Positions 3,471-20,565 of a stretch of 20,746 nucleotides of DNA are shown here, in pieces; positions within the stretch are counted from its first letter, which is position 1, and each line of letters starts with the position of its first letter. The notes below the pieces were generated by a model. The model searched no databases. It saw only the letters and a program-made list of their open reading frames with translations, and was not told where the DNA came from. Source of the stretch: a virus. The stretch covers positions 1 through 20,746 of the IMG/VR virus record IMGVR_UViG_3300017788_001798; one strand, written 5' to 3'. The translations under genes and the position numbers were made by a program.

Positions 3471-4262
3471 CTAAAGGGTTTTCCTCACATAGTTGGAGAC
3501 CTCGGCCACAACGTCCAGAATGTGCTCGGTTCGATAGAAGCCTGCGGAGTGAAAACAGTTGATCTCGATCAGTTTCAGACCCTCAGGCGTTTGAGCCACA
3601 TCCAGAACGAACACAGGACTCGGGGAACAAACCTTGGCCTGTGTGCTGGCGAAGTCACGAACCTCCTGAGGTACCTCAGAGTCAGACCACATTTTGCAAC
3701 CGACCTTGTACTGAACCGCAGCCACGCACTCACCGTTCACGATCCAGGTACGAAACTCGCGCTCTATCTCATGGACTTGATTAACCATGATTTCGGTGTC
3801 CATGGACAAGAGGGTGTTGTTGGTGCTCAGGTCCACAAATCTCTTTAGGTCGATGTGGTCATAGACCTTACCAGCAAATACCTTGAGCCCGCTGTTTGGA
3901 CGAACAAAGAAACGCCCATGGGGGTCGTGGGTCTCCTCAAGAAAATCGCAGAGCCTCACACATCGAGCCCCATGGTTGAGATAGGCCTCCCCATAGCGAG
4001 GACCATACCAAGTGGGCTGGTGAGTAACCGGGTCAAACCACAGGAGCGCCCCGTTGTTTGGAGTTTCGCTCACTCGCTTCACAAGGCCAGTGGACCCGTA
4101 GTAGGTGATAGGCCCATTCCACTGAAAATCTGGAACATGTCCAATCATTGGGGGAAATGGAAAGGCAGCCCAATTGAGGCCTAGGTACTGGAAGGCCTCA
4201 ACAAGGTGTCTACAACTATCCTCCTGGGATAGCTTGGTTTGAATTGCCCAAAGTTGGTTCAT
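3471..4262 (-). CDS. ATP-grasp domain protein (DUF4343-like)
   Basis: A 263-residue protein starting MNQLWAIQTKLSQEDSC. The ATG at 4262 overlaps the TGA of the preceding gene in an ATGA, which makes it the natural coupled start rather than the longer in-frame extension to 4382. The phrase RFFVRPNSGLKVFAGKVYD is typical of the ATP-grasp family PF14243 (DUF4343). The later stretch VFVLDVAQTPEGLKLIEINCFHSAG supplies the E-x-N metal-binding pair of ATP-grasp ligases. Such enzymes join a carboxylate to an amine or thiol via an acyl-phosphate. The substrate is unknown; related phage proteins remain uncharacterised. The two small genes upstream are translationally coupled to it. Confidence 0.8.
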   Translation of the reverse strand: MNQLWAIQTKLSQEDSCRHLVEAFQYLGLNWAAFPFPPMIGHVPDFQWNGPITYYGSTGLVKRVSETPNNGALLWFDPVTHQPTWYGPRYGEAYLNHGARCVRLCDFLEETHDPHGRFFVRPNSGLKVFAGKVYDHIDLKRFVDLSTNNTLLSMDTEIMVNQVHEIEREFRTWIVNGECVAAVQYKVGCKMWSDSEVPQEVRDFASTQAKVCSPSPVFVLDVAQTPEGLKLIEINCFHSAGFYRTEHILDVVAEVSNYVRKTL

Positions 4263-4480
4263 GGGGTGCCAACCTTTGTCTGAATCAAGGGAATGTAGGG
4301 AGCGTACACATAACTTGGAGTGATTGGGAATGACATTGTGGTTCTGTAAGTCCCCACGGGCGAGACCTCGCTGAACACACAAAAACGAAGGGTGCCGTCC
4401 TCACATCGAAAGAACGACAGAATGCCAAAGTTTCCAATGTAGGTTCCGATCCACTCGGATGCTCGGTGTTGATAAATCAT
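4259..4480 (-). CDS. Hypothetical protein, 73 aa
   Basis: Starts MIYQHRASEWIGTYIGNFG and is rich in aromatic residues and beta-like throughout (ILSFFRCEDGTLRFCVFSE, YVYAPYIPLIQ). It overlaps both neighbours by 4 nt (ATGA at each end), so three genes (98 aa, this one, ATP-grasp) form a strictly coupled translation chain. That close linkage suggests a partner or modulator of the ATP-grasp protein, but there is no sequence evidence for this beyond the gene order. No family is recognised. Confidence 0.75.
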   Translation of the reverse strand: MIYQHRASEWIGTYIGNFGILSFFRCEDGTLRFCVFSEVSPVGTYRTTMSFPITPSYVYAPYIPLIQTKVGTP

Positions 4481-4773
4481 GGCTGTTTCTTGTCCAGGAG
4501 AATGTCTATGAGGTGATCAAGGTCAAAAGTTTCTTCGGTTCCATACAGCAAAACGTTCTCCAGTGACTTAACCAAGGCCCAGGAAGACAAACGTAGGTTG
4601 TCAAACTGCATGCTGATTCTCTTTCGATCGCCCATAAGCTCGCAGTAGTACACATGTTCCTCATCGCCAGCATAGGGAACGATACCTATACCATGTTCCT
4701 CAAACTCCTGCCGCCTGGCCTCAAGGGTGGCCTGGACCATTGGAAGCAGGCAATTTGTGTACCTGATAAGCAT
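4477..4773 (-). CDS. Hypothetical protein, 98 aa, paralogue of the 109-aa protein at 5202-5531
   Basis: Starts MLIRYTNCLLPMVQATLEARR. It aligns from the first residue with the protein at 5202-5531, which starts MKPKTLTTMLPFFLAVIESRR. Both share LP, E-x-RR, a charged E-x-EEHG box and a beta stretch beginning IV. Both then have an RRI/RRV core and an acidic FDLDHLI / FDFDRYF motif near the C-terminus. The matching start positions support both start codons. An N-terminal helix is followed by a small beta domain. The function is unknown. The two copies flank the Pth2 gene. Confidence 0.75.
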   Translation of the reverse strand: MLIRYTNCLLPMVQATLEARRQEFEEHGIGIVPYAGDEEHVYYCELMGDRKRISMQFDNLRLSSWALVKSLENVLLYGTEETFDLDHLIDILLDKKQP

Positions 4774-7401: not shown

Positions 7402-8070
7402 TTAAGGGGTTCTGGTTTTTCTTATTGGGTAGGCCACGCTCTCATAAAGAGAGTAGATTTTCTCTTTGGTAGCGGGATCCTTGCCCTGGATTCTAGCGAA
7501 TTCCTTTACGAAATTGCCCGATTTCTCATAGGCCTCATTTTCGTAAACGGTGTTGAGGTCGCCCATTTCATCCATTGGGTCTTGCTTTGCAAGCTCTGTG
7601 TCCAGCACTCCGGTTTCATGCTGCTTACGGTGCGTCAACTCATGGGCAATTGTACGGAGCACGTCTGCAAGGAGACGATCGCCCACCAACACATCGATGG
7701 CATTGTCCTCCATGTGATAGGCCCCGGTTGTCATGTTGGGCTGTTTCACGGCATGGAGACGCATGTGAGGAAAATCCTGAATGTTGAGCTTCTTGTGGCA
7801 GAATCGGAGGAAATTCTTGATCACCTCGAGACTCTCCTGATTAGCGCCCTTTGGGCAGGAAATCTTCACCCTAGGAATCGTGCTGACTTGAGAGTCTTCC
7901 TTTAACTTCTTGTCGTCAAAGAATCCACCTGCGGCACTAGTGCCAGGAACAGCACCACCACTCAGAACTGCCTGTTCCTCCAACTCGCTTACAACCAGAC
8001 TCTCAATCAGGCGACGAAGGTGGGCTGATTGCTGGGGTCCGTTGACGATCTCTTTGTTGCGTTTCTTCAT
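7402..8070 (-). CDS. Putative zinc metallopeptidase (HExxH) with N-terminal LRRLIES helix
   Basis: A 222-residue protein. The zinc motif is HELTH at residues 143-147 (IAHELTHRKQHETG), with a downstream glutamate in YENEAYEKSG (E177 or E179) as probable third ligand. This is the gluzincin-like layout seen in phage-encoded peptidases of the IrrE/SprT kind; the exact family is uncertain. Residues 17-32 (HLRRLIESLVVSELEE) form an amphipathic helix followed by a low-complexity linker (VLSGGAVPGTSAAGG). That helix resembles the N-terminal tags of three other proteins here. The start at 8070 lies inside the serine protease gene (68-nt overlap); the tag supports this start, since no later ATG precedes the tag region. 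Confidence 0.75.
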   Translation of the reverse strand: MKKRNKEIVNGPQQSAHLRRLIESLVVSELEEQAVLSGGAVPGTSAAGGFFDDKKLKEDSQVSTIPRVKISCPKGANQESLEVIKNFLRFCHKKLNIQDFPHMRLHAVKQPNMTTGAYHMEDNAIDVLVGDRLLADVLRTIAHELTHRKQHETGVLDTELAKQDPMDEMGDLNTVYENEAYEKSGNFVKEFARIQGKDPATKEKIYSLYESVAYPIRKTRTP

Positions 8071-8928: not shown

Positions 8929-10134
8929 CTACAAAAGAGAAGCGAACAACTCCGTCTCTCGACGCTCCATTTCTTGGCCGAGTTCCTTACCAGAGAACCC
9001 CTGACCCTGCAATTCCTCGCCACCAATAGAAGGCCTAAACTCCAGGAAAGCCATGACAAGCTTCTTTTCAGGTGAACCCAGGGCACGGGCATACTCGATC
9101 AAGTCCGAGTCCTTGAGCTTTGCATTGGCAAAGAGCTTCTTAAGCCTATAGGCCGTTTGGACCGACAGACCCTGGAAAAGCACCAGGAAAGAAACCTGGG
9201 CCACTTCCTCGGCAGAATACTTGAGGCCGTTTAGAGCCTTCATTAGATGCCTTGGGTCGTTGTCCCTAAGAAGCAGGGCCAACTGCACCGGGACGTTCTT
9301 CGTCTCGTGTACGTCCTCAGAGTTGACCCTGAGTCCGGGGAAAACCTGTTCCCAGAGACCATGGTCGGAGACCATCCCATAGAAGTGTCTAAGGGACTTG
9401 GAGCTCTTTACTCCTTTGAGGAATTCGTCTCGGATACGTTCCGGTGAAACGCCTGCGAGCGAATTGTTCGCTCTAATCGCCTCTGCCGTGGCTCCGTCCA
9501 GGTTAGTGCCAAACCTACCAGCAAAACGCAGGGCACGGAGAATGCGTAGTCTGTCCTCATCAAAACGAGCGACAGGGTCTCCAACCGTCCGTACAGTGCC
9601 TCGTGCAATGTCCTCAATGCCTGAAACATAGTCAATGATTTCCTTTCTTTCGATATCGTAGAAAAGTGCGTTGATCGTAAGGTCTCGCCTCTGGGCGTCC
9701 TGCTCAATGTTCGTAAACTCAACGCCCTGAGGACGACGACCTCCACCAATGTCCTTACGGAGCGTGGCGATCTCGTACTCATTCTTTTCGGGCGTAACCA
9801 CCTTGATTACCCCGAAGGACTTACCGATCTCCAGAATCGTGAAGTCGGGATTCTGACGGAGGATGGCAATGACCTCATCCGGCACAGCATTCGTGGCCAC
9901 GTCGAGGTCCTTGGGCTCCTTGCCCATGAGGGCATCCCTGACAGACCCACCCACAAGATAGAAGTCCTTTCCGGCTGCCTTGAACATTGCAGAAATAGCA
10001 AGCAAGTCCTCAGGCAGAGGAATGTCCATATGTTTACGGACAGGTGCCTCTGAGAGTTGCAACCTAATCACTTCTGAGATGAAGTTTCTGAGGGCCACTT
10101 TGGACTCTTCCAGTTTTCTATGTGGGCTTTTCAT
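8929..10134 (-). CDS. cca: CCA-adding tRNA nucleotidyltransferase / poly(A) polymerase family
   Basis: A 401-residue class II CCA enzyme. The catalytic head has LVGGSVRDALMGKEPKDLDV with metal-binding D76 and D78. RRDLTINAL (149-157), ARFDEDRLRILRALRFAGRF (189-208) and SPERIRDEFLKG are the neck motifs that bind and select nucleotides. It rebuilds the CCA end of tRNAs; a poly(A) polymerase activity is possible because the families look alike. The extra N-terminus before the head (about 38 residues, KVALRNFISEVIRLQLSEAP) resembles the tag helix of the plus-strand proteins. No tRNA gene lies in this window. The start follows the upstream stop by 4 nt. Confidence 0.93.
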   Translation of the reverse strand: MKSPHRKLEESKVALRNFISEVIRLQLSEAPVRKHMDIPLPEDLLAISAMFKAAGKDFYLVGGSVRDALMGKEPKDLDVATNAVPDEVIAILRQNPDFTILEIGKSFGVIKVVTPEKNEYEIATLRKDIGGGRRPQGVEFTNIEQDAQRRDLTINALFYDIERKEIIDYVSGIEDIARGTVRTVGDPVARFDEDRLRILRALRFAGRFGTNLDGATAEAIRANNSLAGVSPERIRDEFLKGVKSSKSLRHFYGMVSDHGLWEQVFPGLRVNSEDVHETKNVPVQLALLLRDNDPRHLMKALNGLKYSAEEVAQVSFLVLFQGLSVQTAYRLKKLFANAKLKDSDLIEYARALGSPEKKLVMAFLEFRPSIGGEELQGQGFSGKELGQEMERRETELFASLL

Positions 10135-11711: not shown

Positions 11712-14700
11712 TCACTTACACTTGGAATAACCGCACGATTTACAGGTAGCGCAACCCTCTTGGTAGATTAGGTCGTGAGAACCGCACTCAGGACACTTCT
11801 TGTCGCTTGTTACCTTTGTGCCGTCCTCGATATAGTGCTTAAGCACCCTTCCGATTGCACGAGAGAAGGAGAAGAGGTCATCTTCCTTTTCCGAGCCCTT
11901 CTGGATCTGCTCCACAACGTACTGAACAGGGGTGCCGTGACGAAGAGCAAGGGAGATAGTGCGAGTAAATGCGGCATGAGTTGCATTATCAAAAACGTTC
12001 GTGATATCCTTGATGGTAGCCTCATCCTCAGGTCCTTTTTCGAAGTCATAGTGGAAGTCATAGCGAGCCACAGGATTTTGTGGTCCGTTGTGCTTCGCAA
12101 TTTTGCCCTCTTTTACTCTCTTAGGAATGTTGATGAACTTGCTCAGTCCACCCATGACCTCATAGGGCTTGCCTTCCATCTTGCCCACGAACACGGTCCA
12201 CTTCTCACCACCAACAGTAACACCATGAACGTCACAGGTCAATTCCTTTGGACGCTTAGGTGCATCATGGCGCTCGAAGGAAACCTTCTTCTCTTCCTTC
12301 TTGGAAGTGGTGCTAACCAAAACACCGTCTCTGCAACCATCACGATAGACGGTTACACCCTTCGTTCCAGACTCCCAACCGGTCATGTAAATGTCCTTGA
12401 TGGTGTCCACAGTGGTTTCCTTAGGAACGTTTGTGGTGTTGCTGATGGAGTGACAAATCCACCGCTGGGCGGCTGCCTGTCCCCGGACCTTGTTCACCCA
12501 AACAATGTCATTGGAGGTTGCCTTGTGATAGGGGCTCTCCTCGACATTTGTCTTTCCGGTAACGTCCATCCACTGTTTGAATCCTTTGTGGTAAACGTCA
12601 AACTCGGTCCACTTGTCGCCTAGCTGGTCAGTGAAATGAACCTTGGAGGTCTTGTCCTCAGGATTGACCTTCTTTCTTCTCTTGTAGTGAAGGAGGAAGG
12701 CTGGTTCAATGCCACTGGTTGTTTGTGTCAGGATAGACACAGAACCGGCTGGGGCCGTGGTTGTGAGAGCGATGTTTCTTCTGCCGAAGGCTTCCCAATT
12801 CTTGCGAAGCTCTGGATCCAGGTCCATGATTTGGTTTAGGAACTCGTGGTTCTTTTCAAGCTCATAGTTGAAGGCCGGGAAAGCGCCTCTCTCCTTTGCC
12901 AGGGTCACGGTGGAGCGATAGCAGTTGAGAGCCAGCTCTCTGTACATGGTCTCAATCCACTCGATGCTCTCGGAGGAACCATAGACCACATTGAGAGCCG
13001 CGAGGGCATCACCGATGGCTGTCACGCCAGTACCAGTTCTTCTACCTCTCTCGCAGGCATTGCGGATCTTTGTCCAGAGGTCAAGCTCAATCTTCTTAAC
13101 GTCCTCTGGCTCTGGGTCCTGACGAATCTTGGCAAGGATCTTGTCAACACTCTCAAGCTCCAAGTCAATCATGTCATCCATGAGCCTCTGGGCCTTTTGA
13201 ACAACCTCCGAATATTTGGCGAAGTCGAAGCTGGCCTTGTCGGTAAAGGGATCCTTGATGAAGGAAAGGACATTCACCAAGAGCAGTCTGCAACTGTCAT
13301 AGGGGTTGAGGACCAATTCCCCACATTGAGCAACAAAGACTCCGTTAAGCAGCGAATCGGACGTTATAATTGCCAGTGTGTGGTTATCATCAACAGTTAT
13401 ATTGTAGACATCGTGTGATCCGGGCAACTCATGGACCGAAACAACTTTGTGGTTGTAACTGTTGCCCGCTTCTTTAACCTCCTTCCAGGTCTTGAAGCCA
13501 TTCTTTAGCATCTTTCCGACACGGAATGGTACACCCTTTTCTTTGCAAGAGGCTTCCCATTCTTTTTGCCTGGGCTCTATCCCGTTTTTTCGGAACTTAA
13601 GCTCTGAATATATTTCAGCCTGTTTATCTTGGTTTATGACAGAGTCGCAAGTTGCACGTTTGTTTCTTGCAATCGTTCTTTTCTTTGCAATTTCCCGATT
13701 GGAATTTACATAGACTAGCGAGCAAGCATGAGAACAGAAAGAAATCTCTCTTCTGCTGTGTTTTACAGCAAAATGTGCCCCGCAAGTCTCACATGTCTTT
13801 CTAACCTGGACTTCAGTGCCTACTATTTCTGCTGAATATCCTTGAGATAGCATCGACTGCAACGTTTTTAGCAAACGTGGGTCGGCATCAGGATATTGGA
13901 ACCCCATTTCAACAGCGCAGGCCTTGGCCAACTCAATTGGCGAAGCAAAAAAATCACGCTGCCTCCATGAGGAAAATCCTACAGGAATTTGATGGGCTGC
14001 GGCATACTTCTGCCACTCTTTATCAGAAAATCTTCTTCCGAGTTGCTTGGTGAGAGCTAGCCCATGTTCTTTCACTGTAGAATTTGAAACACCAGAAAAT
14101 CTACCGTTGTTTTCGCCCACGTTGTCATGGGCGGCATGAAACTTTTGGTGTTCCGCAAACGACATTATGTCAAGATTATCAGGAGAATTGTTGAGTCCAT
14201 TGTAGTCCTTGTGATGAACGACCAACCCGCCATTTATCCAACCGTTCTTCTTTTCTTTTTGAAACAAAGAAGACCACTTTTCTGGATTGCTGAATTCAGC
14301 AATCAAACGATGCTCGGAAACATACTTTCGTTCAGCTCGCGTGTTTACATTGATGCGACTATAGTCTTGGCTGTGTTTAGCTGGCTTGAAGATTTCCTTG
14401 GTAAACCTTGGAAGACTCATTCCTGTCTTAAGGTCTTTCGCGAAAATTGAAGTCCCATCTCTAAGCAAGCACTTATGATCTGGTGTTACGTCAAAATATG
14501 AGGAATCATCCAAAGTTACTCTAACGAGTTTTTTGCCAGTTCCAGTTAGTCTAGGATTTCTACCCATTTTTACTGAAACGCCACCAGAGCTTGGAGATAC
14601 TGAGTAAACTGGAACATCTTTTTCTTCTTCAGCCAACTGCTTTATGCTAACAGCCCCTCTTCCATCGGCGGTGGCAATCAGTGTTTCGCCTGAAAAACAT

Positions 14701-15566
14701 GGGTTGGTAGAGGTAGACTGGAAATCTGGATAGCAATGGGAGGGAGTTCTCCTCATTACGGTATCCCAGAACAAAAGACCGGGCTCTGCCGAGGCATGGG
14801 CAGACTCAATGATCTCGGTCCAAAGCTTCTTGGCGTCCACACGACTCCTAATGGAAGGCTCCCTGGAGTCCACAGGCCAGCGAAGCTCTACCTCTGTACC
14901 GTCCTTTACAGCCTGCATGAATTCATCCGAAAGACGGATGGAGATGTTGGCTCCGGTCACCTTCTTGAGGTCCCTCTTAATGTTGATGAAAGTGGAAATC
15001 TCTGGGTGGTGAACGGAGATTGTGAGCATGAGGGCTCCTCTTCTTCCGCCTTGAGCAACCTCTCTGCAAGTGTTGGAGAACCGCTCCATGAACACAGCAA
15101 TGCCATCCGTGGTCTTTGCCGCATTGTTCGTTGGAATGCCACGAGGACGAATGGTGGAAATGTCAAAGCCCACACCACCCCTTCTCTTCATGATCTGAGC
15201 CTCTTCCTGGTCGGCCTTGAGAATACCCGAGTAACTGTCCCATGGACTCTCAATAACGAAACAATTGCTGAGACTCATGGTCTGATAGGGGTTTCCAATG
15301 CCGCTCATCGGGGAACCCTGAGGGATGATGTACTTGAAGTCCTTTAGGAGCCCGAAAATCTCTTCTTCCGACATTGGGTTCGGATACTTCGTCTCAATCC
15401 TTGCAAATTCCTTTGCCAGGCGTTTGTGCATGTCCGTGGGCGTCTGTTCCAACAGATCGCCCTGAGGGGACGTAAGTGCATACTTGCTTAGGAAAACTGA
15501 GGCCGCCAAGTCATCGCCACCAAAGTATTCCAGGCTCTTTTCCAGAGCTTTTTTGTACGGTGTCAT
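11712..15566 (-). CDS. nrdJ: Class II (B12-dependent) ribonucleotide reductase, interrupted by an intein
   Basis: A 1284-residue precursor; 826 residues after removal of the intein (290-747). It reduces ribonucleotides to deoxyribonucleotides. Cys-102 (SNCFVIES) and Cys-759 (YDSCRL) form the redox pair. Cys-748 (CGELVL) is the thiyl-radical residue, with Asn-288 and Glu-750 completing the NPCGE motif once spliced. The 11-residue step from Cys-748 to Cys-759 equals that between the corresponding cysteines of Thermotoga NrdJ. The Cys-rich C-terminus (CPECGSHD ... GCATCKSCGYSKC) is typical of NrdJ, and no NrdB partner is visible, so class II is favoured over class I. GGAG lies 8 nt before the ATG. 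Confidence 0.95.
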   Translation of the reverse strand: MTPYKKALEKSLEYFGGDDLAASVFLSKYALTSPQGDLLEQTPTDMHKRLAKEFARIETKYPNPMSEEEIFGLLKDFKYIIPQGSPMSGIGNPYQTMSLSNCFVIESPWDSYSGILKADQEEAQIMKRRGGVGFDISTIRPRGIPTNNAAKTTDGIAVFMERFSNTCREVAQGGRRGALMLTISVHHPEISTFINIKRDLKKVTGANISIRLSDEFMQAVKDGTEVELRWPVDSREPSIRSRVDAKKLWTEIIESAHASAEPGLLFWDTVMRRTPSHCYPDFQSTSTNPCFSGETLIATADGRGAVSIKQLAEEEKDVPVYSVSPSSGGVSVKMGRNPRLTGTGKKLVRVTLDDSSYFDVTPDHKCLLRDGTSIFAKDLKTGMSLPRFTKEIFKPAKHSQDYSRINVNTRAERKYVSEHRLIAEFSNPEKWSSLFQKEKKNGWINGGLVVHHKDYNGLNNSPDNLDIMSFAEHQKFHAAHDNVGENNGRFSGVSNSTVKEHGLALTKQLGRRFSDKEWQKYAAAHQIPVGFSSWRQRDFFASPIELAKACAVEMGFQYPDADPRLLKTLQSMLSQGYSAEIVGTEVQVRKTCETCGAHFAVKHSRREISFCSHACSLVYVNSNREIAKKRTIARNKRATCDSVINQDKQAEIYSELKFRKNGIEPRQKEWEASCKEKGVPFRVGKMLKNGFKTWKEVKEAGNSYNHKVVSVHELPGSHDVYNITVDDNHTLAIITSDSLLNGVFVAQCGELVLNPYDSCRLLLVNVLSFIKDPFTDKASFDFAKYSEVVQKAQRLMDDMIDLELESVDKILAKIRQDPEPEDVKKIELDLWTKIRNACERGRRTGTGVTAIGDALAALNVVYGSSESIEWIETMYRELALNCYRSTVTLAKERGAFPAFNYELEKNHEFLNQIMDLDPELRKNWEAFGRRNIALTTTAPAGSVSILTQTTSGIEPAFLLHYKRRKKVNPEDKTSKVHFTDQLGDKWTEFDVYHKGFKQWMDVTGKTNVEESPYHKATSNDIVWVNKVRGQAAAQRWICHSISNTTNVPKETTVDTIKDIYMTGWESGTKGVTVYRDGCRDGVLVSTTSKKEEKKVSFERHDAPKRPKELTCDVHGVTVGGEKWTVFVGKMEGKPYEVMGGLSKFINIPKRVKEGKIAKHNGPQNPVARYDFHYDFEKGPEDEATIKDITNVFDNATHAAFTRTISLALRHGTPVQYVVEQIQKGSEKEDDLFSFSRAIGRVLKHYIEDGTKVTSDKKCPECGSHDLIYQEGCATCKSCGYSKCK
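13326..14699 (-). mobile_element. Intein with HNH homing endonuclease in the RNR active-site motif
   Basis: Covers residues 290-747 of the RNR precursor (458 aa). Block A is C290-FSGETLIATADG; block B is VTPDHK with T361 and H364; block F is VYNITVDDNHTL; block G is GVFVAQ followed by Cys-748 of the extein. An HNH nuclease sits at about 447-478 (VVHHKDYNGLNN ... NLDIMSF), followed by a helical region and a zinc-binding set (C592, C595, C611, C615). The intein ends in Gln rather than Asn, and Ala replaces the usual penultimate His. GC is lower than in the exteins: two sampled 60-nt lines give 23 and 25 G+C (13621-13680, 13561-13620) against 33 and 34 in exteins (12901-12960, 15001-15060), which fits separate acquisition. 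Confidence 0.96.
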
Positions 15567-17230: not shown

Positions 17231-18244
17231 CTACCGCAAGAAAATTCGCATTTGAGTCGCAAAACGATCGAAATCGAAAGAGCTGTTAATTCCGGCTTCC
17301 ATGATCGTTTTAATGAGCTGGAGCTTGTCCATTTTGGCCTCGTGCGTGTCAACAATATAGTCAACTTTCGCCGCTTGGGAGGCACTCAGGGACGAGGAAT
17401 CCAGGTACATCAGATCCCAATTTCTTCTCAGGAGGTCCTCGGACTTGGCCACTTCAAGATACACCTTTAGAGGCTTTTTGGAGGCCGCAGAGACCTGCTT
17501 GGCCTCAGAGACCACTGAGGCTATGTCCACGTCCTTGGTGGCGTCCTGGAAGCCAGAAAACCGCTTTGTGACGGTCTTGAAGCCAACACCCTCGATGCCG
17601 GGGATATTGTCGGAGTCGTCCCCTGCCATGGCCTTGGCCATACAGAAATTCCTTGGGGCAATGTCATACTTCTCCAAGACCTTCTTATCGTCCACCAAGG
17701 AACGAGTGGCAGGATCAAAGACCAGAACCTCAGAGTTCTCAAGTAGCTGATAGAAGTCCTTGTCATTGGATACCACGATCTTCTTGCCTGGCTGGCTGGC
17801 AAACTTGTTCTTCACCAGATAGGCGATAATGTCATCGCACTCCGTCTCAGGAACGAACACCTGGCACACAGGGGTCGTCTTGAGAATTTGGGCAAGCATG
17901 GTTAGTTGGAGAATTCGGGCCTGGTCATCTAGGGCCAGGGCATCCTTCATGGAGTCTTTACCGGCCTGAATCCTCTTCATTTCCTTGGCCTTGGCTCTGT
18001 TGGCCTTGTAGGTTGGGAGGATTCTCTTTCTCCGAGGACTTGGACCTCCATTCTCCCAGACAACGTAGACCTTTGAGGGGGAGAAGGTGGAAACCAGATA
18101 GTCAATCTGCTTGAGGAGGCCCACCACTCCGCCAACCGGTTGGCTTCGGGAGTTGATCTCCTGATTAACGAAGTAATGTCTGAGAAAGCAGTTAAAGCCG
18201 TCGAGAATGATTATTGGCCTGTCCTCTGGTTTGTTAGTTTGCAT
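17231..18244 (-). CDS. 5'-3' exonuclease / flap endonuclease (T4 RNase H / T5 D15 type)
   Basis: A 337-residue protein. The nuclease core has IIILDGFNCFLRHYF (metal-binding D15), VYVVWENGG, RRKRILPTYKANR, ETECDDIIAYL and VVSNDKDFYQLL, with the acidic residues that hold two metals. AGDDSDNIPGIEGVGFKTVTKRF is the helix-hairpin-helix DNA-binding part. Such enzymes remove RNA primers and 5' flaps during lagging-strand synthesis. It is the first gene of the long minus-strand series, diverging from the plus-strand island. No good ribosome binding site precedes the ATG at 18244; the GGAG found is 16 nt away. Confidence 0.95.
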   Translation of the reverse strand: MQTNKPEDRPIIILDGFNCFLRHYFVNQEINSRSQPVGGVVGLLKQIDYLVSTFSPSKVYVVWENGGPSPRRKRILPTYKANRAKAKEMKRIQAGKDSMKDALALDDQARILQLTMLAQILKTTPVCQVFVPETECDDIIAYLVKNKFASQPGKKIVVSNDKDFYQLLENSEVLVFDPATRSLVDDKKVLEKYDIAPRNFCMAKAMAGDDSDNIPGIEGVGFKTVTKRFSGFQDATKDVDIASVVSEAKQVSAASKKPLKVYLEVAKSEDLLRRNWDLMYLDSSSLSASQAAKVDYIVDTHEAKMDKLQLIKTIMEAGINSSFDFDRFATQMRIFLR

Positions 18245-18336: not shown

Positions 18337-18410
18337 GGAGCACAAATAATGAAGATCACAGCCGAACAACTAAAAAAGATGATAAAGGAACAGATTGAAG
18401 AAGTCAAGGT
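18337..18410 (+). repeat. Direct repeat R1, copy 1 (ribosome binding site plus first 20 codons)
   Basis: A 74-nt stretch identical to 18994-19067. It contains GGAG, 8 nt of spacer, the ATG, and the codons for MKITAEQLKKMIKEQIEEVK. Identity stops upstream exactly at GGAG and breaks downstream at the third base of codon 21, after which the two genes are unrelated apart from a short GGAACAGCT match. This copy starts the ParB-like gene. Confidence 0.97.
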
Positions 18411-18822
18411 CGCGACCGCCGGGGAACAGCTAGCTGAATCTCCGATTCCTGATAGCGATTGGGAAGATGCTTTCTGGGTTCTTAAAAACTGGCCTCGCTG
18501 GAAGTGGACGCGTGCTGGTCTTCCAGCTTTGATTCAGGCTTTTGAAAGCGCTAAAGCTGAAGCAACAATTGTACCTATAAGCATAGCTAAGATTAAGCTA
18601 CACAAGGACTGGGGCAGAAAGCCTACCGCAAAGCAGCTTAAAACCCCTATCATAGTTCTAGCATTGCCTCATCTAGATTCGTATGTTGTGCTTGATGGTC
18701 AACATAGAGTGCTAGAATTAAAACGACAAGGCGTGAGTAAAATTCAGGCATGTGTTCTGAATTTGCCTTACAGACTAGGCATGAGTCTTAGGGGCGTCAG
18801 AGACATAGTGTTTAATCCTTAG
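18349..18822 (+). CDS. ParB-like domain protein with N-terminal tag helix
   Basis: A 157-residue protein. Residues 1-20 are the shared tag (MKITAEQLKKMIKEQ...). Residues 75-140 resemble the ParB / sulfiredoxin-like fold: VPISIAKIKLHKDWG, then TPIIVLALPHLDSYVVLDGQHRV with DGQHR at 116-120, then VSKIQACVLN. In this fold the DGxHR loop binds nucleotide; members include plasmid-partition proteins, nucleases and CTP switches. No helix-turn-helix follows, so this is not a complete partition ParB. The ATG at 18349 is chosen over an upstream start because GGGAG precedes it and its tag is repeated. It may be a regulator, nuclease or packaged protein. Confidence 0.8.
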   Translation: MKITAEQLKKMIKEQIEEVKVATAGEQLAESPIPDSDWEDAFWVLKNWPRWKWTRAGLPALIQAFESAKAEATIVPISIAKIKLHKDWGRKPTAKQLKTPIIVLALPHLDSYVVLDGQHRVLELKRQGVSKIQACVLNLPYRLGMSLRGVRDIVFNP

Positions 18823-18829
18823 AGGAAGC

Positions 18830-18950
18830 ATGTATTTCTACAAAGCAATCGTCAACAAAGTCGTAGACGGAGACACTCTGGATTTGAGTGTCGATCTAGG
18901 ATTCGGCGTCTGGTTTGACGTGCGAGTTAGGACCTGAATATAGGTCAGCT
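18830..18950 (+). pseudogene. Broken staphylococcal-nuclease-like (thermonuclease) gene
   Basis: A GAGG ribosome binding site and ATG follow the ParB-like stop by 7 nt. The 35-codon frame (18830-18937) has YKAIVNKVVDGDTLDLSVD then LGFGVWFDVRVR, the N-terminal strands of the SNase fold with VDGDT and the conserved Arg. It stops at a TGA where the family continues G-I-D-A-PE-YR. The bases for PEYRSA lie directly downstream in the next frame (18933-18950). A short internal deletion with frameshift therefore removed the GID-type loop, and the rest of the gene is gone. The homology ends exactly where repeat R2 begins (18951). Confidence 0.75.
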
Positions 18951-18995
18951 AACCCTTCATCGGCTGAACCTTGTATGCCAGGTAACAAGAAAAGG
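18951..18995 (+). repeat. Direct repeat R2, copy 1
   Basis: 45 nt matching 19568-19612 with two differences (18963 G/A, 18983 T/C). In the second copy it begins within the last codons and stop of the 192-residue protein (PFID-stop). Here the corresponding frame reads PFIG-stop but is preceded by an in-frame TAA, so this is a non-coding remnant. Its right end touches repeat R1 copy 2. Within it, CTTGT ... ACAAG flanks an imperfect TGCC-A-GG(T/C)A palindrome. Confidence 0.95.
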
Positions 18996-19067
18996 AGCAC
19001 AAATAATGAAGATCACAGCCGAACAACTAAAAAAGATGATAAAGGAACAGATTGAAGAAGTCAAGGT
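18994..19067 (+). repeat. Direct repeat R1, copy 2
   Basis: Identical over 74 nt to 18337-18410, supplying the ribosome binding site and the first 20 codons of the 192-residue protein. The distance between the two copies is 657 nt. It abuts repeat R2 copy 1, so the R2/R1 junction marks a cassette boundary. Confidence 0.97.
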
Positions 19068-19584
19068 TGCGAATGCTGAGGAACAGCTTAGGGCCTTCGT
19101 TGACAAACTGCAGGGGCTCCTAGACACCGGCAAGGCGCACACCGTCAGCGAGCTCGACCTCGATGCTCTCAAGCCTGCTCTAAGAAGCCTTAAGTCTAAG
19201 GCTGGTGCCGCAGGGCGCTCTCCAGAAAGCAAGCTTGCTGCAGCCCAGAAGGCTGCAACAACTAGAAAGAAAAACAAGGCCGACGCCGTCGCCTTTGCTG
19301 GTAAAATTGCAGCCGATAGGAGGGCAAAACAGGCTGCAGCCGAGAACCGTGCAAACAGGGGCCTTCTCCCTCTTGTGGTTACTGGCTACAACGGTACACC
19401 TTCCCCGGAATACTATGAACCAATGAGCAACTTGATTACCGGACCTGATGGTTTTAGCATTCCTAGATTCCGACTTAAGAGACAATACAAGAATCTATCA
19501 GTGGATGACGTTGAGCTTCGACGAGGACGGGTGGTGTCGAGGCGTGATGACATCCTTAACGGCGCAGAACCCTTCATCGACTGA
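19006..19584 (+). CDS. Basic Ala/Lys-rich protein with N-terminal tag helix, 192 aa
   Basis: Residues 1-20 are identical to those of the ParB-like protein at 18349. A helical segment follows (EEQLRAFVDKLQGLLDTG), then at about 60-115 a strongly basic, Ala-rich stretch (KLAAAQKAATTRKKNKADAV, KIAADRRAKQAAAENRANRG), and finally a non-repetitive part ending NGAEPFID. The basic low-complexity stretch suggests DNA binding or charge neutralisation, as in proteins packaged with phage DNA. No enzyme motif is seen. It has a good ribosome binding site (AGGAG, 8 nt) and is followed by a strong terminator. The function is unknown. Confidence 0.8.
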   Translation: MKITAEQLKKMIKEQIEEVKVANAEEQLRAFVDKLQGLLDTGKAHTVSELDLDALKPALRSLKSKAGAAGRSPESKLAAAQKAATTRKKNKADAVAFAGKIAADRRAKQAAAENRANRGLLPLVVTGYNGTPSPEYYEPMSNLITGPDGFSIPRFRLKRQYKNLSVDDVELRRGRVVSRRDDILNGAEPFID

Positions 19585-19612
19585 ACCTTGTATGCCAGGC
19601 AACAAGAAAAGG
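19568..19612 (+). repeat. Direct repeat R2, copy 2
   Basis: 43 of 45 positions match 18951-18995. It covers the last four codons and stop of the 192-residue protein and the following 28 nt, ending inside the left arm of the terminator. The two copies bracket the 192-residue gene. Here the internal palindrome is exact (TGCC-A-GGCA); the other copy has T for the second C, which would still pair with G in RNA. Confidence 0.95.
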
Positions 19613-19636
19613 GCTGCGACAATCCGCAGCCCTTTT
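19607..19636. terminator. Bidirectional rho-independent terminator
   Basis: AAAAGGGCTGCG / CGCAGCCCTTTT is a perfect 12-bp stem with a 6-nt loop. On the plus strand it is followed by CCTTTTG, and on the minus strand its right arm ends in TTTTCTTG. It separates the plus-strand island from the converging minus-strand dUTPase/lipoprotein unit and probably ends both transcripts. Confidence 0.93.
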
Positions 19637-19663
19637 CCTTTTGTATTCCCGTGGATGGGTTTG

Positions 19664-19999
19664 TTAGTTGCCTGAGACTTCTGGGCAAAGAGACTCGTAG
19701 GCACTCACAAGCTCGCAGGCATGTTGTCTAGAGGATTCCCTGAGTCTGAGACCTAGGTTGTTGCACCATTCTCTCATGTCGGCAATGTCGCCTTCCTCGA
19801 ACATTTCCTGACAACGAGCCTCACGACGAACCCGGGCCTGTCGAGCATACTCCACGGAGACAGCCCTAGACTCGGAAGCCGAGGTAGGACTGCATCCTGA
19901 GGAATACAGAAGGATGAAGAAGAATCCAACGCAGCTCAGAACAATGAGTAAGGCTCCAAGGGCGAACTGGACGATTAGAAGTTTGTGAAAATCTGACAT
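19664..19999 (-). CDS. Small membrane protein or lipoprotein, 111 aa
   Basis: Starts MSDFHKLLIVQFALG, 5 nt after the dUTPase stop. A long hydrophobic segment (residues 7-32) ends in YSSGC (Cys-36), a possible lipobox. The mature part is charged and helical (EYARQARVRREARCQEMFEEG) with several Cys (RCQEMF, EWCNN, HACEL, SLCPE) that could form disulphides outside the cytoplasm. The layout resembles the 88-residue protein at 2144-2410. The function is unknown; superinfection exclusion and spanin-like roles are possible but unsupported. It is the last gene before the bidirectional terminator. Confidence 0.75.
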   Translation of the reverse strand: MSDFHKLLIVQFALGALLIVLSCVGFFFILLYSSGCSPTSASESRAVSVEYARQARVRREARCQEMFEEGDIADMREWCNNLGLRLRESSRQHACELVSAYESLCPEVSGN

Positions 20000-20004
20000 G
20001 GTAC

Positions 20005-20565
20005 TCAGGCTCCCGAGGAGCCAAACCCAGAGGCTCCTCTGTTGGTCTCGGTTACTTCCGAGGATTCCTCCATTGGGATTTCTCCCGCTGTGGCAACCTT
20101 ATAGACAACCAGTTGGGCGATTCGATCGCCCCGTTTAAAGGCAAGTGGTCGTGCAGGCTCACCGGTACTCATGGCATTGAGAACCACGCCAATCTCTCCT
20201 CGATAGTTTGGGTCGATGATACCACCCGAGGGAAAGACTCCCTTGAGAGCAAGGCCGGAGCGCCCCTCAATCTTAAGGAAGATGCTGTTGCCCGCAAGAT
20301 CCTTTGTTGGCATGTCTGCCAACTGGATTCCAGTGGAGACCTTTCTGGTATTGCCTGGGAACATCAAGAAATCCTCGTCGCAGCAAAGGTCAAACCCAAT
20401 GTCTCCTGCACGGGAGGCAGAGGGAATCGTTGCCGTGGGAGTCATCTTCTTGAACCTAATGGCTAGTTTGGGCTCAGGAATCTTCTTTGGGGCATACCAG
20501 TTGGGGTCGTCAGTCTTGTAGGACTGCATTGCAAATGCCTTGTCCTTGTTTTCAGCGTCTGTCAT
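20005..20565 (-). CDS. dut: dUTP diphosphatase (trimeric dUTPase)
   Basis: A 186-residue protein with all five family motifs in order: SRAGDIGFDLCC, GRSGLALKG, GGIIDPNYRGEIGVVLNA (catalytic Asp in DPNYRG), RGDRIAQLVV and the C-terminal RGASGFGSSG lid. It hydrolyses dUTP to dUMP, preventing uracil incorporation and feeding ThyX. The extra 40-residue N-terminus (PNWYAPKKIPEPK) is not part of the usual fold. AAGGAAAG lies 5 nt before the ATG. Confidence 0.96.
   Translation of the reverse strand: MTDAENKDKAFAMQSYKTDDPNWYAPKKIPEPKLAIRFKKMTPTATIPSASRAGDIGFDLCCDEDFLMFPGNTRKVSTGIQLADMPTKDLAGNSIFLKIEGRSGLALKGVFPSGGIIDPNYRGEIGVVLNAMSTGEPARPLAFKRGDRIAQLVVYKVATAGEIPMEESSEVTETNRGASGFGSSGA

Follow-up and report, generated by a model that had tools for sequence, protein, structure and literature searches.

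The internal proteins (IPs) of T-even phages are encoded at polymorphic loci and have only an N-terminal leader in common. They are packed into the core of the prohead, undergo clipping by gp21 and are injected (PMC12373910, PMC9026906, PMC3012670, PMC9391042). Of the T4 proteins Ip1-3, each inhibits a type IV restriction enzyme of its own (PMC12373910, PMC9026906). In the giant phages phiKZ and SPN3US, many internal proteins, the Ejection (E) proteins, are packed and are processed by the prohead protease after a motif ending in Glu (PMC5694885, PMC7411985). The window described here, the whole stretch of 20,746 nt that was analysed, contains two adjacent small genes with an identical N-terminal leader and unrelated bodies. 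They probably form a cargo-exchange locus of a large T4-superfamily-like phage, working like the T-even IP loci and carrying a capsid-targeting leader.

Repeats and genes of the locus

Two different direct repeats alternate at the locus (Table 1). The R1 copies agree in 74 of 74 nt and, in a repeat comparison within the window, stay 95% alike out to 95 nt. The R2 copies match in 43 of 45 nt. R2 copy 1 shares its last 2 nt (GG at 18994-18995) with R1 copy 2, so that the initial annotation was right to describe them as touching. Chance cannot account for an exact 74-nt repeat in 20.7 kb; the BLAST E value of R1 against 4.2 Mb was 1e-36. Neither a tandem-repeat array nor an Rfam family is present. 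R1 comprises a ribosome-binding site, the ATG and the codons of the N-terminal peptide MKITAEQLKKMIKEQIEEVKVA, the encoded peptide being MKITAEQLKKMIKEQIEEV. R2 is a 3′ end running into a strong terminator. The fold of 19585-19650 reaches -27.2 kcal/mol (z -6.4), and at R2 copy 1 a stable hairpin is absent according to the fold calculation. All flanking genes are located on the minus strand; the initial annotation had noted the locus as the only plus-strand island.

Table 1. Features of the locus and its flanks, with positions in the window.
Feature	Position	Strand	Description
5′-3′ exonuclease	17231..18244	-	divergent flank; anchor in the search for relatives
R1 copy 1	18337..18410	+	ribosome-binding site (GGAG) and shared leader codons; same 74 nt as in copy 2
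Tagged cargo gene 1, 157 aa	18349..18822	+	leader MKITAEQLKKMIKEQIEEV; tag HMM E 6e-6; body weakly ParB-like (DGQHR box)
Truncated staphylococcal-nuclease-like gene	18830..18937	+	opening 34 codons only, then stop; recombination scar
R2 copy 1	18951..18995	+	pre-terminator 3′ sequence fused to R1 copy 2, without terminator stem
R1 copy 2	18994..19067	+	74 nt identical to copy 1
Tagged cargo gene 2, 192 aa	19006..19584	+	identical leader; tag HMM E 7e-6; Ala/Lys-rich basic body
R2 copy 2	19568..19612	+	final codons and stop codon of gene 2; 3′ UTR
Intrinsic terminator hairpin	19606..19637	+	ends the locus, between convergent genes
111-aa ORF	19664..19999	-	convergent flank
dUTPase	20005..20565	-	bounds the exchange site on the outside; syntenic across the compared relatives

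The cargo between the repeats had been called unrelated, and the two tagged ORFs are indeed alike solely in their N-terminal ~22 residues. The assignment of ORF1 as ParB-like is plausible but weak: the DGQHR motif is present, a Pfam match is lacking, and a phmmer search of the PDB led to SbnI with an E value of 0.15. The proposed broken nuclease gene is real. Positions 18830-18931 encode the first 34 residues of the nuclease, followed by TGA and then R2. Close relatives possess intact versions of 124 aa (56-65% identity over the 34 residues of the window), which identifies the 34-codon gene as a truncation scar. A palindrome like ACGGTTAATATTTAACCGT precedes the intact 124-aa nuclease genes in the closest clade.

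Relatives of the two tagged ORFs were found neither in IMG/VR nor, with an E value below 0.04, in 4.2 Mb of collected DNA. Pfam, PHROGs and PADLOC recognized almost no domains in the cargo. A PHROG match of the cargo to an anti-restriction family was weak (E 0.01) and is not relied on. Single-sequence AlphaFold modelling of ORF1 gave a pLDDT of 39, with a predicted helix at residues 5-20 as sole usable feature. Elsewhere in the window, the gene for the RNR large subunit (11712-15566, minus strand, 1284 aa) is split by an insert that resembles an intein and carries an HNH nuclease.

Cargo exchange in relatives

Relatives were found with the exonuclease as query, yielding about 80 loci, the nearest 60-69% identical. 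Many of them carry several small ORFs upstream of the exonuclease, on the opposite strand, which start with MKITVKQLKQLIREQVEE and are wholly different thereafter. Downstream of each tagged ORF stands a GC-rich terminator, in which the sequence AACGCCGC..GCGGCGTT recurs. The DNA of tag and terminator in the relatives is their own, not R1 and R2 of the window.

The interval between exonuclease and dUTPase is syntenic in 16 relatives, in most of which 105 to 983 nt separate the end of the dUTPase from the exonuclease. Tagged genes inside number zero, one or two. The site is empty in L020, L022, L023, L044, L046 and L006, because the dUTPase ends just 105-124 nt from the exonuclease start. A single tagged gene is present in L018, L017, L011 and L010/L012, with cargo that differs except within near-identical contigs. 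Two are present in L013 and L024, as in the window. In L004 and L005, the 111-aa ORF known from the flank of the window's locus adjoins the exonuclease with no cassette, representing an empty version of the window's site.

Very close relatives differ as well. The exonucleases of L018, L017, L021 and L020+L022 are 98.2-99.2% identical, yet four different states occur at the site. Among contigs with 98-100% identical exonucleases, a 96-aa gene is found in L014, L015, L018 and L019, a different 174-aa gene in L017, a third gene in L021 and none in L020, L022 and L023. L018 and L017 align with 91% identity over positions 1-176, covering the intergenic region, the ribosome-binding site and 51 nt of the tag. 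Their cargo is without any similarity, and from the terminator on the contigs are 99.4% identical over 1942 nt. At a second site with near-identical flanks, L018 has two cassettes, L022 one, and L017 and L020 none. Number, order and identity of the cargo genes thus vary at the locus among close relatives.

The initial annotation had proposed an exchange locus in which both the start (tag or expression) and the end leading into the terminator are fixed, and had suggested a comparison of relatives. That comparison bears the proposal out: at one and the same genomic site, ends of the same kind enclose different cargo or none. The exchange model holds because near-identical contigs differ in cargo, while homology stops at the tag and restarts at the terminator. 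Cargo exchange in the relatives is well supported.

These data also bear on two other explanations. Plain tandem gene duplication would involve ends kept by gene conversion, bodies diverged past recognition and no exchange of cargo. The R2-R1 junction resembles a tandem-duplication joint, and IMG/VR contains no exact match to the DNA of R1 or R2, both in favour of such an origin; the two bodies, however, are unrelated and of unequal length, and a foreign truncated nuclease lies within the first unit. The explanation is contradicted by the near-identical relatives, which swap whole cargoes at the site, and was rejected as very unlikely. A dedicated site-specific cassette system, integron-like and with the terminator hairpin as attachment site, would fit the fixed cassette ends and the precise presence or absence at two sites. 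No integrase was detected beside the locus or among the window ORFs scanned, and the breakpoints vary by site, falling in a poly-A leader, the promoter or the tag. One-base-exact ends were not seen, and homology at the ends suffices. This model was likewise rejected, for lack of an adjacent integrase and for its variable breakpoints, and is hardly credible.

In the favoured cargo-exchange model, each gene would be a cassette consisting of a ribosome-binding site and a leader of ~19 residues, a variable cargo and a terminator. Homologous or short-homology recombination via the leader/promoter end and the terminator end would replace, add or delete cargo. Recombination via the cassette ends is apparent in the relatives and presumed in the window. 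The two units of the window may have originated from a tandem duplication followed by replacement of one interior, a history read from a single sequence. On this reading, the joint between R2 and R1, the identity over 74 nt and the truncation of the nuclease are scars of a recent rearrangement.

The leader as a protein signal

A tag profile built from the 19 N-terminal residues and iterated over some 60 contigs gave 159 matches, of which 145 have Met exactly at position 1. The 133 unique tagged proteins fell into 106 cargo clusters. The consensus of the leader is M-K-I-T-x-x-Q-L-K-Q-I-I-R/K-E-E (MKITxxQLKxIIREE). With ~19 residues it forms a short amphipathic helix, as the leaders of T4 are amphipathic. 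Neither reversed ORFs nor 1.43 Mb of DNA surrounding HK97-type capsid genes gave a profile match. In a control with eight tag-phage contigs, 46 of 47 matches were located at Met1. A tblastn search of isolate phages with the tag peptide, a query too short for the purpose, gave no useful match, and the leader sequence was not found in the literature searched.

A degenerate DNA pattern of the tag occurred in 58 stretches of viral contigs and in one stretch of 257 Gb from 84,980 bacterial and archaeal genomes. The sole bacterial match is a 5.6-kb contig (L386, JAIOYD010000118.1) binned with a Rickettsiaceae MAG. Its two MKITVKQLKQLIRE-tagged genes, together with a gene resembling one in the relative G003, make it most likely that this contig belongs to the present phage clade and was misbinned.

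R1 had been read mainly as a DNA end. This view requires revision, as R1 is chiefly an N-terminal signal at the protein level: the codons drift among phages, and between phages the tag is conserved as protein only. Within most genomes, the tag codons agree beyond the prediction from codon usage (13 of 13 in the window), which indicates that DNA copying of tags also occurs. The tag is a protein signal present across many uncultured large phages.

Some further genes carry related N-termini. In the window, a tRNA nucleotidyltransferase (8929-10134, minus strand) and a putative metallopeptidase (7402-8070, minus strand) have N-terminal helical extensions ending in LSE-A and LEE-Q (MKSPHRKLEESKVALRNFISEVIRLQLSEA; ...LRRLIESLVVSELEEQA). 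These extensions are possibly divergent versions of the leader. A 294-aa gene of relatives (G026, 3888-4772) encodes LKKLLEYLLEEELEEQ-A at its N-terminus. The cultured Flavobacterium phage immuto (NC_055915) encodes a shortened leader in three of its annotated genes (gp114 at 81525, gp094 at 102880 and gp080 at 113188), namely MKKSQLRxII... and MKLDLLKKLIKEA..., and shares the gene order exonuclease-DnaB-RNR with the window. Dense runs of 7-11 tagged genes were observed in G028 (65-70 kb), G023 (50-57 kb), L135 and L167. Such runs may represent large arsenals of injected proteins.

Prohead protease and probable capsid targeting

A prohead protease of the T4 gp21 type (Peptidase_S77, scored above the curated cut-off) was found in 15 of 22 tag-bearing contigs. 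In the reverse test, tags were present in 11 of 15 contigs picked solely by Peptidase_S77. Four contigs (G014, G049, G054 and G056) combine a relative of the exonuclease, the S77 protease and tags. The head operon of G014, with protease and gp23-like capsid protein, contains a tagged 84-aa gene, and in other contigs a tagged gene lies directly 3′ of the protease. The link to the protease runs through related contigs, because the 20.7-kb window and the fragments of its closest clade are without head genes. Tight co-localization is not claimed, since the tag lies within 10 kb of S77 at only 9 of 66 loci.

After the amphipathic helix stands a hydrophobic-x-Glu motif, the kind of site that is cut by gp21. 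In 90 of 106 cluster representatives, residues 16-34 contain the pattern [LIVM]-x-E, compared with 25 of 102 for residues 40-58, an enrichment that stems in part from the Glu-rich helix itself.

A different function of the leader at an equally real exchange locus has to be weighed. It might dock on a partner supplied by phage or host (RNA polymerase, membrane, replisome or protein compartment) or drive oligomerization, rather than serve packaging. A short amphipathic helix suits any docking role. Runs of tagged genes are often remote from head genes, the locus of the window sits among replication genes, and several partial tag-bearing contigs have no S77 match (among them G023, G028 and G031, with 6-8 tag matches each). 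The location, however, has its precedent in the T-even phages, whose ip genes in T4 likewise lie outside the head operon. The association of tags and gp21-type protease in both directions, the tagged genes inside the head operon and the hydrophobic-x-Glu after the helix also speak for packaging, and leave docking elsewhere a rather unlikely, if serious, explanation.

The leader is thus likely a capsid-targeting sequence. It would dock the protein on the prohead core and be clipped by the gp21-type protease after the hydrophobic-x-Glu site. The cargo would be packaged and then injected together with the DNA. Injected cargo would probably counter host defence; this role is an analogy, because the cargo has almost no recognizable domains. 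It is further proposed that MKITxxQLKxIIREE is a widespread, T4-independent capsid-targeting leader. It would define the 'injectome' of a large proportion of the uncultured T4-superfamily phages: more than 100 orphan families of cassette-exchanged first-strike anti-defence proteins, delivered together with the DNA. For this wider proposal, confidence is evenly divided.

Should the leader indeed target the capsid, the proteins that uncultured large phages inject could be read off with a simple N-terminal profile; most of them have no recognizable domain. Candidate anti-defence proteins could then be collected in a searchable catalogue, given that the three such proteins of T4 each block a restriction enzyme of their own (PMC12373910). 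Proteins could also be loaded into phage heads by means of a new tag.

Comparison with known systems

Phage anti-defence islands (anti-CRISPR, anti-restriction) resemble the locus in their small, fast-changing orphan genes at a fixed place among core genes. Unlike these islands, the locus has a protein leader common to all cargo. The E proteins of phiKZ and SPN3US are not known to have a short common leader with exchangeable cargo, in contrast to the window. The prohead protease of these phages is a divergent relative.

The T-even IP loci with their capsid targeting sequence (CTS; Repoila et al. 1994, ref. 27 in PMC12373910) are closer. In both systems, small proteins that are otherwise unrelated begin with a short conserved leader, and highly variable cargo occupies fixed loci with conserved cassette ends. 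The ends here are leader and ribosome-binding site on one side and terminator on the other, whereas those of T4 are flanking repeats, which reportedly carry early promoters. The ip genes of T4 are found among early and metabolic genes, and the locus of the window sits among replication genes. Tags of the window type occur in uncultured lineages from freshwater and the sea, where a contig may hold as many as about 11 tagged genes. The T4 leaders read MKTYQEFIAE/MKTFKEF, while MKITxxQLKxIIREE is longer and different, with a general likeness in the MK start, the amphipathic character and the Glu end. The tag HMM gave no match to T4's own leaders in the ip regions, and homology of the leaders is therefore not established. 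A gp21-type protease is encoded in related large contigs, and the hydrophobic-x-Glu after the amphipathic leader may correspond to the processing site of the T-even leaders. As far as the sequences allow a judgement, the locus works as the T-even IP loci do, with a leader different from theirs.
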